From: Chloroflexota bacterium
GTDB taxonomy: Bacteria; Chloroflexota; Dehalococcoidia; Lucifugimonadales; Lucifugimonadaceae
Assembly: GCA_024275195.1 (NCBI GenBank)
Contig: JAJRZP010000137.1
Span: 1-64,000 of the forward strand
Length of the DNA stretch: 64,000 nt
Reading direction: 5' to 3'
A program made the translations under genes and the position numbers. Below are positions 2,180 through 16,382 of the stretch, piece after piece (the first letter of the stretch is position 1; each line of letters opens with the position of its first letter). The notes under the pieces are model-generated. The model saw only the letters and a program-made list of their open reading frames with translations. It made no database searches and was not told the DNA's origin.

Positions 2180-3460
2180 CTACGACGAAAGAGACCTCGC
2201 AACTGCGTCGAGGGTCTCTGCTATGTCTGCGTCTGAGTGCGCTGTCGAAACGAACCATGCCTCGAACTGTGAAGGTGGCAGGTAGACGCCGTTGTCGATC
2301 ATGCCGTGGAAAAAGGCCCCAAATGCCTCTCTGTCCGTTGCAGATGCACTATCCATATCGGTCACCGGGTTGCTGGTGAAGAACACAGTCATCAGACCGC
2401 AAGCCCGGTTTACAACGGCAGGAACGCCAGCATCGGCAAATACGCCCAGTACGCCGTCCGCCAACCTGTCGGTAATCGCCTGTATTCGTTCGTAAGTACC
2501 CGGCTTCGACAGTTCGTCAAGCGTCGCAATCCCGGCCGCCATCGCAACAGGGTTGCCCGATAACGTCCCCGCCTGATACATGGGGCCAAGGGGAGCTACC
2601 TCGCTCATAATCTCAGCGCTTGCACCGTATGCTCCCACCGGGAACCCACCGCCGACGATCTTGCCGAGACACGTAATATCCGGCGTCACGCCATAAACCG
2701 ACTGGGCCCCGCCCAGCGCCACCCGGAAGCCAGAAATGACCTCGTCGAAGATCAGTAGAGCCCCGTGTTCGGTGGTGAGGTCGCGTAGCCCTTCGAGGAA
2801 TCCGGGGGCAGGGGTGACAACACCCATGTTTCCAGCGATTGGCTCGACGATCACGGCAGCGACTTCACCTTCGTTGGCTTCGAGCAACAGCCGAACTGAA
2901 GCAACGTCGTTGAAATCAGCAACGAGAGTGGCCGCGGCATAATCGGGATGAACACCGGCTGATGACGCAATGCCCTGATTCGCAAGCCCTGAGCCCGCTT
3001 CAACCAACAGGGCATCTTCGTGTCCGTGGTATCCGCCGTTGAATTTGAGAATCTTGCTTCGCCCGGTCTTCGCACGAGCGAGACGGAGCGCGGACATGGT
3101 CGCCTCTGTACCGGAACTGACGAACCGCACGACTTCGATGGAAGGTACAGCTTCCGTCACACGTCGGGCCATCTCAACTTCAAGCTCGGTAGGTGCCCCG
3201 AACGAAGTTCCCTGTCGTGCGGCACTAACGGCAGCATCGATCACGGCCGGGTGAGCGTGTCCGAGGATCATCGGCCCCCATGAGCACACATAGTCGATCA
3301 ACTCGTTGTCGTCAGCATCCCAAATGCGCGAGCCTGAAGCTCTCTTAAAGAAGATCGGGTCGCCGCCCACGGAGCCCCACGCACGTGCAGGACTGTTAAC
3401 CCCACCAGGGATCAGGTTCTTGGCATCACGAAATAACTGTGCCGACTTTGCACGGGACAA
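2180..3460 (-). CDS. hemL: Glutamate-1-semialdehyde 2,1-aminomutase
   Basis: 'LIPGGVNSPARAWGSVGGDPIFFKRASGSRIWDADDNELIDYVCSWGPMILGH', 'LIFDEVISGFRVALGGAQ', 'TLSGNPVAMAAG'. Start placed at a TTG (3460) preceded by GGAGG; the 3532 ORF start overlaps the hemA terminator. Confidence 0.92.
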   Translation of the reverse strand: MSRAKSAQLFRDAKNLIPGGVNSPARAWGSVGGDPIFFKRASGSRIWDADDNELIDYVCSWGPMILGHAHPAVIDAAVSAARQGTSFGAPTELEVEMARRVTEAVPSIEVVRFVSSGTEATMSALRLARAKTGRSKILKFNGGYHGHEDALLVEAGSGLANQGIASSAGVHPDYAAATLVADFNDVASVRLLLEANEGEVAAVIVEPIAGNMGVVTPAPGFLEGLRDLTTEHGALLIFDEVISGFRVALGGAQSVYGVTPDITCLGKIVGGGFPVGAYGASAEIMSEVAPLGPMYQAGTLSGNPVAMAAGIATLDELSKPGTYERIQAITDRLADGVLGVFADAGVPAVVNRACGLMTVFFTSNPVTDMDSASATDREAFGAFFHGMIDNGVYLPPSQFEAWFVSTAHSDADIAETLDAVARSLSS

Positions 3461-3526
3461 TCTGGGCCTCCGAATTATGAACCGCGAGCGTTCAAAGTAA
3501 TCTCTCTCATATTCTGGCGAGAAAAA

Positions 3527-3546
3527 GGGCACTGTAACAGTGCCCT
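3527..3546 (-). terminator. Intrinsic terminator downstream of hemA
   Basis: gggcactg taac/cagtgccc hairpin; on the minus strand it is followed by TTTTTC. Confidence 0.65.
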
Positions 3547-3584: not shown

Positions 3585-4925
3585 TTACTCGAGTTCGTCC
3601 TCATCTTCTTCTGACAGTGCGAACACTTTCTGAACCGCCTCTGCAGCACTGTGTTCTTCACTTCGCAAGAAGCTGATCGGGTCGGCAAGGATGCGGCGCA
3701 CCAGTGATCGTGTCATTTTTTCGACCGAAACCGCCTGCTTTTCAGTCAGGCCATCGAGACGAGAAAGTGTCTGCTCAACTTCCTCACGCCTCATCTGCTC
3801 GATACGAGCGCCGAGAGTTCGGATGACAGGTTCACTGTCAATCCCGGTCAAACGCTCCTTGAAGCGCAGTATTCCATCCTCAATGTAGCTCTGAGCCTCT
3901 GCGGCAGCTTCCTCACGAAGTTCCCAACTCTCAGCCGACTTTGCCTGGAGTTCAGTAAGGCTGATCAGGTTCACTTCATCGATCTCGCCGACTGAGGGCT
4001 CTACATCGCGCGGCATCCCCAGATCGAGAATGCTAAGTAGTCGATCCGGTCGGGTAGTGACAGCATTTCTGACCACGCCATCCGAAATTACTGAACTGGT
4101 GGCAGCGGTGCAGGTTATCAATACATCGGCCTCGACTAGTGCTGTCGAAATATCCTCGAACAGAACCTGTGGAGCGCCTAGCTCTTCGGCGAGAACCCTG
4201 CCTCGGTTCGCCGATCGACTCGAAACAACGATGTCGTCTGCGCCGTATCTTCGCAGAGCGCGAGCGGTGAGTTTGCCCATCTCGCCCGCGCCAATCAGCA
4301 GAACCCGTAATCCGCTCAAATCACCCAGCGTGCTCTGAAGTTCCTGCACGCCAAGCGACGAAACCGACGTCCGGTTGCGTCCGAGGGCAGTCTCCTTGCG
4401 AATCTTTCGACTCGTCCGCAATGCTGCGTGAAATAGACGCGATAGCATCGGGTCAACGGCTCCGGCTTCGCCAGCGGCCTGCATTGCACGCGTGACCTGA
4501 CCGAGTATCTGGGATTCGCCAAGTGCGACCGACTGAAGGCCAGCCGTGACAGCAAACAGGTGCTCTGCGACCTCATCACCTGTCAACGTATAGATATATT
4601 CGCCAATGCCAGTGACGCCGGCATGCTCGGGAACGGCGTCAATGTATTCCCGTAGCTGGCGAACACCGACTTCTACATCTTCGGCAACCGAGTAGATTTC
4701 GGTGCGGTTGCATGTCGAAAGAATGACACCCCCGCCGGCATGGGTCGCAAGTCGCTCTAAGTGTTCCTTTAGCGAATGGGCCGGTACTGCCACGCACTCC
4801 AGCACATCGACTGGAGCGCGATCAATATTTAGCCCTGCGAGTATGAAATTCAATTTATTAAACCTACCAGCGCTCGCCCCCGTACTGGCAGACTCATGTG
4901 CGAGAATCCCAGCCCCTGACTGCAA
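3585..4925 (-). CDS. hemA: Glutamyl-tRNA reductase
   Basis: 'GGGVILSTCNRTEIYSVAEDV', 'LQSVALGESQILGQV', 'RVLLIGAGEMGKLTARAL', 'ILDLGMPRDVEPSV'. Exact start uncertain. Confidence 0.93.
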   Translation of the reverse strand: MQSGAGILAHESASTGASAGRFNKLNFILAGLNIDRAPVDVLECVAVPAHSLKEHLERLATHAGGGVILSTCNRTEIYSVAEDVEVGVRQLREYIDAVPEHAGVTGIGEYIYTLTGDEVAEHLFAVTAGLQSVALGESQILGQVTRAMQAAGEAGAVDPMLSRLFHAALRTSRKIRKETALGRNRTSVSSLGVQELQSTLGDLSGLRVLLIGAGEMGKLTARALRRYGADDIVVSSRSANRGRVLAEELGAPQVLFEDISTALVEADVLITCTAATSSVISDGVVRNAVTTRPDRLLSILDLGMPRDVEPSVGEIDEVNLISLTELQAKSAESWELREEAAAEAQSYIEDGILRFKERLTGIDSEPVIRTLGARIEQMRREEVEQTLSRLDGLTEKQAVSVEKMTRSLVRRILADPISFLRSEEHSAAEAVQKVFALSEEDEDELE

Positions 4926-5080: not shown

Positions 5081-5944
5081 ATGAGCATTCCATCAATAAT
5101 TCCACCCGACAAACGCGGCTACACGCTGCCCGGCATATTCGTAACGACCGAATGGTTGGCAGAACACATCGAAGATGAAAACGTCCGCGTGGTCGATACG
5201 GATTCACCTGAAGAGTACAAATCTGGCCACATCACCGGTTCGGTGAATCCAGTTGATCACTACTACAAGACATCTCTTGATGATCGCACTCACATTCAGA
5301 ATCCTGAACAGTTCGCGCAGACTATGGCAGGGCTCGGGATCGATGATGACACGCTCGTTATCGGCTACAACCGCTCGGGTGGTGTCTACCCGTTCAGGCT
5401 AATGTGGGCACTCAACTACTACGGGCACACCAACGTGAAAATCCTCGATGGCGGGCTGGAGAAGTGGCAAGCTGAAAGCCGACCCACCACCACCGATCCC
5501 ACGATTGCCCCAACTGGAGTCGGTTCTTTCAGTCCGAAGAGAGATCCGGAGATATTTGCATCTATGGAGCAGGTTCTCGCGGCGATCGACGATGACTCGA
5601 CGATCTTGCTAGATGTACGGTCGGACGAAGAATGGACCGGCGAAAACAAACGTGGGGGACCCCGGGGCGGGCGGATCCCCGGTGCTGTTCATCTTGAGTG
5701 GACGAATTTCCACACTGGCGGAGCCATCCCGGTTCTGAGAACTGCCGATGAAATCCGCAGAATACTCGCCGATGTCGGGGTGACACCTGATAAGAACGTC
5801 ATCACCTACTGACAGGGTGGCATCCGTGCGGCGCACGGATTCTGGACTCTGAAGCTCGCCGGATTCGAAAACGTACGCGACTATGACGGTTCGTGGCGAG
5901 AGTGGGCGGCGATCCCTTCATGCCCGGTAGAGGGGCTCACCTAG
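5081..5944 (+). CDS. Two-domain rhodanese (thiosulfate/3-mercaptopyruvate sulfurtransferase); candidate selenoprotein with UGA at the catalytic Cys codon
   Basis: 243 aa of rhodanese ending ...DKNVITY, then TGA (5810-5812), then in the same frame QGGIRAAHGFWTLKLAGFENVRDYDGSWREWAAIPSCPVEGLT* (TAG 5942-5944). TGA occupies the C of the CxGGxRA active-site loop. Family call is firm; Sec decoding is inferred. Confidence 0.8.
5813..5844 (+). promoter_or_regulatory. Candidate bacterial SECIS element
   Basis: Directly after the in-frame TGA: ATCCGTGC-GGC-GCACGGAT (5822-5840), perfect 8-bp stem, loop starting with G, loop begins 17 nt after the TGA; possible short lower stem CAG/CTG. Confidence 0.6.
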
Positions 5945-6103: not shown

Positions 6104-7324
6104 ATGAAACTACGAAGAACATTCCTAATATGGTTTGCGCTGGCAGCGACCACCGCCATCGCGGCGGCAGCCTGCGCTGGTGATCTGAATCCTGCCAGCG
6201 CTCCCACCCCGATCGTATTCGATCCGGTTCCACCGTTCACAGCAGATGCCCCAGCGGCAACCAGCACGCCTGATATCAAGCCAACAAACCCTCTTCCGCT
6301 TCCGACATATCCCGAGGGCGTACTTGAGCTATATGACATCGCAGGATGGCTCAACTCTGATGAATTCACGATCGCCGAACGAACAGCAAACAACGAGGTA
6401 GTTCTTGTAGATTTCTGGACGTACACCTGTGTCAACTGCATCCGCACTTTCCCGTTTCTCAGGGATTGGTACGCCAAGTACACCGACAGAGGTCTGGTTA
6501 TTCTCGGAGTGCACACGCCAGAGTTCAATTTCGAGAAAGACTACGACAACGTAAAGGCGGCAATCGAACGAGAAGGCATCGGGTGGCCGGTTGCCCAGGA
6601 CAATGAATATGCCACCTGGGACTCTTTCGGAAACCGTTACTGGCCCGCCAAATACCTGATTGGGATTGACGGCCAGTTGTCGTATCGTCACTTTGGAGAG
6701 GGTGCATATGTCGAGACCGAACAGGCGATCCGTGACGCACTGACTGAGGCGGGATGGGATGTCTCGGATATTCCGTTCACCGATCTTGAACCGGCAACAA
6801 AAGATTCGGTTGCCAATCGTGTCACCCGAGAACTGTACGGTGGCTACGAAAGAAACTACACCCAGACCGGGCTTTACGCGGGTCAGGAGCAGTACTACAT
6901 AGCAGCCGACTCCACTCGCGAGTATCTCGATGACGGCACCTACACTCCGAACCAGTTCTATTTGCAGGGATCGTGGACCAACGGCCCGGAATCGATAACT
7001 CATGCAAGATCAACGAAGAACCTTGAAGATCACATCGCTTTCCAGTTCGTTGGGCGAAGCGCGAACGTCGTGGTAAATCCAACACGTGCAGAGCAGTTCA
7101 ACGTGTACGTGGAACTCGACGATCGACCACTCAAACCAGATGAGGCCGGAATGGACATAATGTTCGACAATCAGGGTCGTTCATACTTCATCGTCGATAG
7201 CCCGCGGCTCTATGCCTTTCTCGAAACTCCTGAATATGGGGAGTACATCGTAAAGTTGGCATCCGACTCGGATGATTTCGCAATCTCCGCATTCACTTTT
7301 GGAATCAACGAAAGTGGAATATAG
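6104..7324 (+). CDS. Thioredoxin-like lipoprotein (DipZ/TlpA C-terminal-like)
   Basis: Lipobox-like signal '...AIAAAAC'; 'VLVDFWTYTCVNCIRTFPFLRDWYAKYTDRGLVILGVHTPEF'; WPAKYLI cis-Pro region. Confidence 0.82.
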   Translation: MKLRRTFLIWFALAATTAIAAAACAGDLNPASAPTPIVFDPVPPFTADAPAATSTPDIKPTNPLPLPTYPEGVLELYDIAGWLNSDEFTIAERTANNEVVLVDFWTYTCVNCIRTFPFLRDWYAKYTDRGLVILGVHTPEFNFEKDYDNVKAAIEREGIGWPVAQDNEYATWDSFGNRYWPAKYLIGIDGQLSYRHFGEGAYVETEQAIRDALTEAGWDVSDIPFTDLEPATKDSVANRVTRELYGGYERNYTQTGLYAGQEQYYIAADSTREYLDDGTYTPNQFYLQGSWTNGPESITHARSTKNLEDHIAFQFVGRSANVVVNPTRAEQFNVYVELDDRPLKPDEAGMDIMFDNQGRSYFIVDSPRLYAFLETPEYGEYIVKLASDSDDFAISAFTFGINESGI

Positions 7325-8325
7325 TGGGCGCAATGCATCTTCCATCACGTCGCTTGCTTGCCATGGCTGTCGTCAGCATGACGAGTCTGGCGCTCGTCGC
7401 GTGCGGATCGTCCGTTGCCTCCGAGATCGCCACAACGACGTCTGTGCCTGAAGTTCAGATACCCGACCCTGTCTCAGAGGCTGCCCTATTCGCTTCGCAA
7501 GAGCCAAACTGGGTTGCGATCTCCGAAGATATCGATCTCGTACTGGCAACACCCGACCTCGGAGTCGGCGAACAACGATTCGGCATCGTACTCAGCGACG
7601 ATAAAGGCCTGATTAAATTCCCGATAGTGAAGTTGACTTCAAATTACTTTCCAGACGGATACAACGCTGAGCCAAACTTAGAGTTGTCCGATTCAGGGTC
7701 AGCGCGGTTCTATGAATTCCCGTTCGGAACACGTGGAATTTATTCGACAAATCTCAAGTTTGCGAAAGCTGGCTTATGGTCGGTATCCGCCAATGTCCCG
7801 CGCCCGGATGGTTCCAGTTCGCGTGTGGAGGTTCGGTTCCCTGTTGCAGAAACGGCCATGTCGGTTGCTGTCGGCCAGAACGCACCACTGAGCGACAGCC
7901 GAACACTGGCAGATACCGGCGATCTTGCGGGGCTAACCACCGGCAGCCTGAGAGATCCAGGCCTGTATGAGTATTCGATCGCCGATGCCATCGACCGTGA
8001 CCGACCGCTTCTGATCGTCTTCGCCAGCCCTGCCTTTTGCACGAATGCCGTCTGCGGGCCGCAGGTCGAGGTTGCCAGCGAGTTGCGGGAGGAATACGGG
8101 GAGCAAGTCGATTTCGTCCATGTTGATCTTTACACCAATACTCAGGAAATCCAGGGTGACCTGAGCAAGGCGCAACTGACACCTATCCTCGCTGAGTGGG
8201 GCCTTACCTCGCAGGAGTGGACCTTCATCGTTGGTCCCGATGGTGTTGTAACCCACCGATTCGAGAATTTCGCACCCAAGCCCGAGTTGATAGTGGCTCT
8301 CGATCAAGCTATCGAAATGAGCTAA
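7324..8325 (+). CDS. Lipoprotein with thioredoxin-like domain
   Basis: Lipobox 'TSLALVACGSS'; 'RPLLIVFASPAFCTNAVCGPQVEVASELREEYGEQVDFVHVDLY'. GTG start overlaps the upstream stop, so likely translationally coupled. Confidence 0.75.
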   Translation: MGAMHLPSRRLLAMAVVSMTSLALVACGSSVASEIATTTSVPEVQIPDPVSEAALFASQEPNWVAISEDIDLVLATPDLGVGEQRFGIVLSDDKGLIKFPIVKLTSNYFPDGYNAEPNLELSDSGSARFYEFPFGTRGIYSTNLKFAKAGLWSVSANVPRPDGSSSRVEVRFPVAETAMSVAVGQNAPLSDSRTLADTGDLAGLTTGSLRDPGLYEYSIADAIDRDRPLLIVFASPAFCTNAVCGPQVEVASELREEYGEQVDFVHVDLYTNTQEIQGDLSKAQLTPILAEWGLTSQEWTFIVGPDGVVTHRFENFAPKPELIVALDQAIEMS

Positions 8326-14584: not shown

Positions 14585-14702
14585 AAATTTCATGGGCGCG
14601 TCATATTCGCTCTCCAAACTCCTACTTCAGTGCTGGCAGTAGGTCGTCGTTCGATGGTCAATCTGCCGTATTAGGAATAAGTACTTGAAGCGGAGATATG
14701 AA

Positions 14703-16382
14703 ATGAAAAAGCGCTCATGGTTGCCGATCCGTTCGGTAGTTCTAGCTCTCAGCGTACTGCTCGTTACAGCAGCCGTTGCCTGCGGATCAGGTGACCCAAC
14801 TCCCCAACCTGTCGTATCGGAACCAACTGCCACTGTGAACGACGCTGCGGTAGATGACGGTTCAACGGCGGGTGATGACGCCATGGATGGCGATGCCGAC
14901 ATGAAAGACGACGCCATGGATGGCGATGCCGACATGAAAGACGACGCTATGGATGGCGACGGCGACATGAAAGACGACGCCATGGACGGCGACGGCGACA
15001 TGAAAGACGACGCCATGGACGGCGACGGCGACATGAAAGACGACGCCATGGACGGCGAAGGCGACATGAAAGACGACGCCATGGACGGCGATGCCGACAT
15101 GAAAGATGACGAGATGATGAGTGACGACGAAATGGTCGAACACCAGGGCCCTGTGTTCACGGTGCTGATCGAAAACATCGGCACAGTGTTCGATTTCTCA
15201 TCGAGCGGTGTAGCTGGGGATGGCCCTGCCGGACCCGGAGACAAGTTCTCATTTGAGTTCGAGGCCGCCCCCGGTGACGCTCTGTCGTTCGCCACAATGT
15301 TCGTGCCGTCTAACGACTTCTTTTTCGCCCCTTCTGAGCAAGGCATACAGCTTTACGACGAGAGCGGGAATCCCCTGTCAGGAGATGTGACCGACCAAAT
15401 CATGCTGTGGGACGCAGGAGTTGAAGCCGATCAGGAGCCCGGTGCCGGTTCAGAACAGCCACTGATGAACAGCGGCAATAGCCCCGACACCCCTGACACG
15501 GACAGCACGGTTCGTGTAGCTGCCGACACGTTTGGCAACCTGCCAACTGTTGCGAGTGTGGTGCGAGTCACGGTGACTCACCTCGGTGGAACTCGATTCG
15601 AGGCAGTCATTGAAAACGTGTCCACAGGTACCACTCTGGTAACTGCCGACGGCGTCTCTTCGGCTGTTCCGTTGACTCCCCCGCTGTGGGTTGTTCACTC
15701 GAACCCGGCTCCGTTGTTCTCCGAAGCCGAGATTGACCGTGGCGAGGGACTTGAAGTTCTGGCGGAGACCGGTGCAGCGGCTCAGCTAGCTGCTTCGATC
15801 GCGGCTCGTACCGGGCTGACATCACCCATCGCACCGGGCGTATTCGCAGTCATCGATGGAGATGCCCAGTTGTACCAGATCGGTGAGGCAGATCAGGGTA
15901 TCGGCCTGGAGGCCCTTGCAGAAGACGGCTCTCCGGCTCAGCTCGCAGATTCAATATCCGCAGCAGCCGGTGTGGTCAGTTCAGGTTCGTTCACGACCCC
16001 TTCAGGAGCAGATGGCCCAGCGCCAGCACTCCCGGGAGACTCCTACGAGTTCACTTTCGAAGCGGTGATCGGCGATCGACTGTCGCTGGCGACAATGCTC
16101 GTTCAAACAAACGACCTGTTCTTCGCTCCCGAGTTTGGCTGGATTGATCTGTTCAGTGCTTCGGGTGAACCGATCAGTGGTGACCTAACCTCGCAGTTCC
16201 TTCTCTGGGATGCGGGCACGGAAGTGAATCAGGCTCCGGGCGCTGGACCCGACCAGGCGCCTCGTCAGGCTGAACCTGACACTGGCGAATCAGAGACAGC
16301 GAACGTGGCCCCGGTTGACGACGGTTACACCTACCCAGATGTTGACGCGATGATTCGTGTGACGATCACGTCGCAGGGTTAG
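14703..16382 (+). CDS. Secreted lipoprotein with Asp/Met-rich tandem repeats and spondin-like domain(s)
   Basis: Lipobox 'LLVTAAVACGSGD'; seven DDAMDGDxDMK repeats; 'FTVLIENIG...FEAAPGDALSFATMFVPSNDFFFAPSEQGIQLYD...' repeated later as 'FEAVIGDRLSLATMLVQTNDLFFAPEFGWIDLF', as in Spondin_N proteins. Confidence 0.75.
   Translation: MKKRSWLPIRSVVLALSVLLVTAAVACGSGDPTPQPVVSEPTATVNDAAVDDGSTAGDDAMDGDADMKDDAMDGDADMKDDAMDGDGDMKDDAMDGDGDMKDDAMDGDGDMKDDAMDGEGDMKDDAMDGDADMKDDEMMSDDEMVEHQGPVFTVLIENIGTVFDFSSSGVAGDGPAGPGDKFSFEFEAAPGDALSFATMFVPSNDFFFAPSEQGIQLYDESGNPLSGDVTDQIMLWDAGVEADQEPGAGSEQPLMNSGNSPDTPDTDSTVRVAADTFGNLPTVASVVRVTVTHLGGTRFEAVIENVSTGTTLVTADGVSSAVPLTPPLWVVHSNPAPLFSEAEIDRGEGLEVLAETGAAAQLAASIAARTGLTSPIAPGVFAVIDGDAQLYQIGEADQGIGLEALAEDGSPAQLADSISAAAGVVSSGSFTTPSGADGPAPALPGDSYEFTFEAVIGDRLSLATMLVQTNDLFFAPEFGWIDLFSASGEPISGDLTSQFLLWDAGTEVNQAPGAGPDQAPRQAEPDTGESETANVAPVDDGYTYPDVDAMIRVTITSQG
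14874..15104 (+). repeat. 33-bp coding tandem repeat, seven units
   Basis: (GA[T/C]GACGC[C/T]ATGGA[T/C]GGCGA[T/C/A]G[C/G]CGACATGAAA)x7, encoding DDAMDG[D/E][A/G]DMK. Confidence 0.93.

Follow-up and report, generated by a model that had tools for sequence, protein, structure and literature searches.

The UGA codon at positions 5810-5812 of the window, i.e. of the whole 64,000-nucleotide stretch of Chloroflexota DNA analysed here, is almost certainly read as selenocysteine (Sec), the catalytic residue of a two-domain rhodanese. We assign a probability of about 0.95 to the complete reading: the gene encodes a selenoprotein in which Sec244 would be inserted with the help of SelA, SelB, SelD and a hairpin following the UGA, the product is a predicted rhodanese-type sulfurtransferase, and Sec is ancestral within the order. 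The gene comprises the following parts:

5081..5944, + strand: Sec-containing two-domain rhodanese/sulfurtransferase gene (287 aa, Sec244, stop codon TAG), based on the same frame in orthologues and on the fold
5138..5485, + strand: N-terminal rhodanese domain (about residues 20-135) without a catalytic Cys and with NRSGGVY at the loop, based on two Pfam stretches, a full-length alignment to 1uar and the model
5564..5911, + strand: C-terminal catalytic rhodanese domain (residues 162-277), Pfam PF00581
5810..5812, + strand: in-frame UGA at the catalytic Cys position of the CQGGIRA loop, aligned with TGC/TGT in Cys orthologues

A preliminary description of this DNA had proposed that the frame continues past the TGA into a C-terminal rhodanese region and that the TGA sits exactly at the active-site Cys of the rhodanese loop, and both points are borne out. 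Starting at 5081, the frame passes the TGA and stays open up to a TAG ending at 5944, and the read-through product of 287 residues contains a single UGA, at residue 244. Two Pfam Rhodanese matches are present in this protein (140 bits, E 3e-41), the better of which (162-277) crosses the UGA. In the alignment of relatives, TGC or TGT stands opposite the UGA within the YCQGGIRAA loop of the Cys orthologues. The gene has a UGA aligned with the functional Cys of homologues, as in bacterial selenoproteins, and shows the SseA-type (COG2897) arrangement of two rhodanese domains, of which the C-terminal one carries the catalytic residue. Directly behind the UGA (5813-5815), all 61/61 order-level Sec genes have CAG; since CAA also occurs there in a held-out set, i.e. 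sequences collected afterwards from other orders and classes, we do not claim CAG as part of the signal. Codon context or base composition may account for the fixed CAG.

The AlphaFold2 model (pLDDT 96, pTM 0.93) places residue 244 between a strand (239-243) and a helix (248-259), which is the rhodanese active-site position, and the nearest solved structures are the Thermus rhodanese 1uar, mycobacterial CysA and SseA, MST and bovine rhodanese. Thermus thermophilus 1uar as well as CysA2/CysA3 and SseA of M. tuberculosis share the two-domain fold and the position of the catalytic residue at about 30-34% identity, whereas they carry Cys in place of Sec. The equivalog model for 3-mercaptopyruvate sulfurtransferase (NF008557) gave 134 bits and did not reach its curated cut-off of 250, and we therefore consider the protein related to MST without filing it as MST. 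As judged by fold and family, the product would be a two-domain rhodanese located in the cytosol and belonging to the thiosulfate/3-mercaptopyruvate sulfurtransferase type, with catalysis confined to the C-terminal domain and an inactive N-terminal domain. Sec244 is predicted to form the base of the active-site loop (UQGGIRA); a donor would load it with sulfane sulfur, giving a selenenyl-persulfide (Se-S-), the sulfur of which would then be handed to a thiol acceptor. Across the orthologues there is no conserved Cys besides the catalytic position, which makes an internal Sec-Cys redox pair unlikely; such a lone catalytic residue would fit a one-residue sulfur-carrier mechanism through Se-S.

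An unlikely alternative is a selenoprotein with a main function other than sulfur transfer, such as the reduction of peroxides or persulfides or the delivery of selenium to SelD via Se-S chemistry. The loop motif is CRKGVT in TST and CGSGVT in MST, and UQGGIRA matches neither of them. A redox role is also thought to apply to most predicted selenoproteins with thiol-active homologues (PMC9312934), and a thioredoxin-like gene is syntenic with the rhodanese. On the other side, no resolving Cys is conserved, the entire fold is that of TST/MST, and the thioredoxin-like neighbour looks exported, whereas the rhodanese does not. The neighbouring genes, assigned by neighbourhood comparison and family search, are:

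2180..3532, - strand: hemL, syntenic
3585..4925, - strand: hemA (glutamyl-tRNA reductase), divergent, syntenic
6104..7324, + strand: predicted exported thioredoxin/ResA-like protein, syntenic
7324..8325, + strand: lipoprotein-like protein with no NCBIfam match, syntenic

The order hemL-hemA (divergent), rhodanese, thioredoxin/ResA-like protein and lipoprotein is shared by much of the family and partly also found around Cys forms, but this conserved neighbourhood is synteny and no proof of partnership. As the compartments are probably different, we set aside the thioredoxin-like protein as a partner of the rhodanese. Elsewhere in the window, a 33-bp tandem repeat (14877-15111; 7.1 copies at 95%) inside the ORF 14685-16382 encodes DAMDGDGDMKD repeats in a lipoprotein-like protein.

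For the predicted selenoprotein gene, the hairpin downstream of the UGA provides evidence at the RNA level:

5822..5840, + strand: bacterial SECIS hairpin with the 8-bp stem ATCCGTGC/GCACGGAT, based on folding, conservation, covariation and synonymous constraint
5824..5838, + strand: conserved six-pair SECIS core including the loop, based on conservation, covariation and the held-out set
5830..5832, + strand: apical loop GGC, in the family G followed by G or U (GGC in 59 and GTC in 11 of 70)

The perfect 8-bp stem with a G-first loop, 17 nt after the TGA, is present as initially described, and its supposed agreement with the bacterial SECIS layout holds: loop (3 nt, G first), stem (8 bp), TGA-to-loop spacing (17 nt) and MFE (-11.0) fall within all four published bSECIS model limits (PMC13188914). 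None of 200 shuffles was as stable as ATCCGTGC-GGC-GCACGGAT (-11.0 kcal/mol, z -3.5), and synonymous resampling of the QGGIRAAHGF codons produced a perfect 8-bp stem in 0.8% and an equally low MFE in 11% of the draws. Taken alone, the hairpin of a single sequence is only moderately surprising, and since the single-sequence fold of a wider 41-nt stretch reached a z of only -2.0, we did not accept it as proof. An Rfam scan of the region returned no family matching the hairpin.

Comparison of Sec and Cys orthologues is more informative. The six-pair core is whole in 67/70 TGA orthologues compared to 0/21 Cys orthologues, with a GGC or GTC loop in every TGA orthologue (n=70), and in the held-out set it is whole in 18/21 Sec versus 0/19 Cys genes. 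Exceptions are three TGA orthologues of the main set that lack one core pair and three more distant TGA rhodaneses of the held-out set without the core. While some Cys orthologues of the main set are A+T-rich, the held-out Cys members use G+C-rich codons, and an A+T-rich make-up is therefore not the cause of the missing core. Thus, the SECIS is kept with UGA and missing with Cys, which excludes a chance hairpin. In addition, the pairs change together: where the protein changes from RAAHG to RSSNG, the RNA pairs change from GTGC/GCAC to GTTC/GAAC, and in I-to-V lineages a C-G pair becomes G-C. Counted over 30 distinct 19-mers, double changes occur at five of the eight pairs, with a covariation score of 0.258 against 0.090 for shuffled data (0/500 as high) and 0.054 at most in slid registers. 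The two outermost pairs are poorly kept (paired in 11/30 and 22/30), and for this reason we claim only the six pairs as core. Normalised synonymous-codon entropy in the hairpin codons of Sec genes is 0.30 at the genus and 0.24 at the order level compared to 0.79 and 0.89 in the rest of these genes, whereas Cys genes show no drop (0.89 in the hairpin codons and 0.89 elsewhere). Covariation and synonymous-codon constraint both support the predicted RNA structure.

These data also bear on the possibility that the UGA is a real stop, with a truncated protein of 243 aa as the conserved product and a downstream frame that is kept for occasional plain read-through. It is true that the UGA would terminate translation without selenium and that the full-length protein is a predicted one. 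However, truncation at 243 aa would remove the catalytic residue together with the active-site loop and the final helices, the full length is kept in all Cys orthologues, and the hairpin follows the UGA and not the protein sequence, so that we consider this explanation very improbable.

The proposed search of the parent genome (171 contigs, 92% complete) for selA, selB, selC and selD was successful for all four genes. We found tRNA-Sec on contig C169 (66.5 bits; ARAGORN tRNA-SeC, anticodon tca), selA on C46 (511 bits) and selD on C68 (371 bits), while selB is split by contig ends, with its first 317 residues at the edge of C96 and a 271-residue C-terminal piece at the edge of C14; in a closed genome of the same genus it is whole (343.9 bits, positions 2-580). 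The selD found in this genome also encodes a selenoprotein, as an in-frame TGA (LTELATCAGUAGKLS) stands at the usual Sec/Cys site of SelD. Among the genomes with a TGA rhodanese, 73/74 contain selA or tRNA-Sec compared to 18/26 Cys genomes (Fisher P 6e-5, with the relatedness of the genomes ignored); the one TGA genome in which neither showed up is 82% complete (G040). Based on this gene set and the conserved SECIS, SelA would convert seryl-tRNA-Sec to selenocysteyl-tRNA-Sec using selenophosphate supplied by SelD, SelB would carry the charged tRNA to the ribosome and bind the hairpin just 3' of the UGA, and the UGA would then be decoded as Sec244 rather than as stop.

Alternatively, an unusual tRNA or a genome-wide code change could assign Cys or some other amino acid to the UGA instead of Sec. 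Bacterial tRNAs with a UCA anticodon that are charged with other residues are known, and the orthologues have Cys at this position. Against this stand the full selA/selB/selC/selD set, the Sec at the Sec/Cys site of selD and the inspection of the scanned window frames with a TGA stop, among which only the rhodanese frame ran into a recognisable conserved domain and no second Sec gene stood out by eye among the candidates listed; hence, we give recoding hardly any weight.

The same TGA is present in 18 genomes of the genus, the window's own and 17 further ones. Genome scan matches at 73-79% identity comprise SAR202, Dehalococcoidia and Chloroflexi MAGs as well as the complete Candidatus Lucifugimonas marina JH1073 (CP046147; Chloroflexota, Dehalococcoidia, SAR202 cluster, Ca. 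Lucifugimonadales), which places the genus in SAR202. This Ca. L. marina strain has been cultured and PacBio-sequenced (PMC10444878), and its closed genome contains the gene with the same UGA and the same hairpin; the stretch NVITYUQGGIR is common to the JH1073 and the window protein. The relatives thus rule out that TGC became TGA in this assembly through a nonsense mutation or through an error of sequencing or assembly, for which the fragmented draft of 171 contigs left room: many independent assemblies, including the closed one of the cultured strain, share the TGA together with an intact downstream frame and a covarying, conserved hairpin. With this, the caveat raised in the preliminary description is settled, and as far as they were checked, none of the refuting conditions listed there holds: close relatives keep TGA, hairpin and downstream frame, and the hairpin is decayed in TGC/TGT relatives, as would be expected for a true Sec/Cys exchange.

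The UGA form occurs in many families of the order and, beyond it, in several more of the class, which amounts to dozens of families; elsewhere in the phylum it is rare and Cys is dominant. When the catalytic column was left out of tree building, the Sec/Cys label still required only 7 changes in all, compared to about 26 with shuffled labels. Cys is nested inside Sec in four places, namely in genome G059 (inside a Sec genus), genus g11, genera g6/g7/g9 and family f24, and the hairpin is broken in each nested Cys group. This pattern indicates that Sec is ancestral in the order and that Cys returned about four times, an event count that rests on a quick tree; the lineages concerned would have swapped Sec for Cys and lost the hairpin each time. 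Searches for selA and tRNA-Sec found neither of them in g6 and in most of g9, while g11 kept both. Hence, two kinds of loss occur, that of the whole Sec trait and that of the rhodanese Sec alone.

Several further Sec rhodaneses were noted. One genome of the same order (L143, G141:C2) has two tandem Sec rhodanese genes with UGA at 1870 and 2834 and a hairpin each. The bin G014, a genome of the window's genus, contains two Sec rhodanese orthologues (C30:5090-5950 and C67:17869-18729) with 75% and 79% identity to that of the window, which perhaps reflect two strains in the bin or a duplication. A second, divergent Sec rhodanese branch (L154, L155, L192; UHGGARAAL, UGGGARASL, UQGGARAAL) has an equivalent hairpin that is written differently (GCGCGGGC/GCTCGCG). 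Outside the main clade, a catalytic-site TGA is found in L089 (Planctomycetota, UGSGQRSS), L102 (Fusobacteriaceae, UTMGIRSG), L194 (UQGGIRSS) and L215 (UQTGQRSS), the latter two without the window-type hairpin core; these four are possibly independent Sec rhodaneses.

The preliminary description was right that rhodanese selenoproteins had been reported before (PMC1088965, PMC2398784, PMC9312934, PMC13188914). The Sargasso Sea study of 2005 predicted a "rhodanase-related sulfurtransferase" selenoprotein of COG2897 from 3 sequences and displayed the SECIS of AACY01016424 (Zhang et al.; PMC1088965), the GOS metagenome study counted 8 sequences (PMC2398784), a review gives MQG53192.1 as example (PMC9312934), and a listing from 2026 contains "rhodanese-like protein form 4, UxxG" with MCY3690685.1 (PMC13188914). 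The window rhodanese fits into this form 4 (COG2897/cd01449), matched to the three accessions by description: it is a marine SseA-type protein with two domains, Sec at the catalytic Cys position (UxxG, here UQGG) and a SECIS directly downstream. While form 4 was represented by a handful of metagenome reads without host assignment (3 and 8 sequences) and by example accessions, our data add the host lineage with its complete Sec machinery, a cultured host, the deep ancestry of the gene and its repeated change from Sec to Cys. Other selenoproteins with rhodanese domains differ from it. Form 3 (NF041203, rhodanese_LYCAU, a rhodanese-related (seleno)protein) likewise has Sec in the active-site region, but it is a single domain of 126 aa with a CxU motif, and the window rhodanese scores 36 bits against its 115-bit cut-off. 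The TsoB rhodanese/DsbD fusion (form 5, NF045694), not matched by the window rhodanese, and form 1 (WP_010941598, UxxS) have a different domain layout or motif.

Regarding the host, a literature search for SAR202 together with selenocysteine or selenium gave nothing relevant by title and abstract, which is weak evidence as subscription papers were mostly outside the search. Words beginning with "chloroflex" are absent from the main text of four of the papers on the family, among them PMC2398784, PMC9312934 and PMC13188914, the SAR202 cultivation paper (PMC10444878) has no "selen" in its text, and the deep-Sep paper mentions neither rhodanese nor Chloroflexi. The family itself is already known, without a link to SAR202 in the papers searched; what we add is its host lineage, its ancestry and the exchange between Sec and Cys.

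Within SAR202, an abundant group of marine bacteria, the Sec rhodanese is both old and widespread, and it is present in a cultivable strain. In SAR202 genomes with the UGA form, standard gene callers will end the protein at residue 243 and drop the catalytic residue; therefore, sulfur-metabolism annotations of this abundant deep-ocean clade likely miss the Sec rhodanese. It is conceivable, albeit a rather improbable extension of our data, that the protein is an ancestral near-core enzyme of SAR202, and of much of the Dehalococcoidia, which ties sulfur or persulfide handling in the deep ocean to the selenium supply, and that together with the Sec-containing SelD it may be among the reasons why the Sec system is kept. 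An orphan metagenomic selenoprotein family of 2005 thereby gains a named host lineage with a culture, in which Sec insertion and the advantage of selenium over sulfur in a sulfurtransferase become testable, and the repeated exchange of Sec for Cys with loss of the SECIS inside one order represents a natural experiment.
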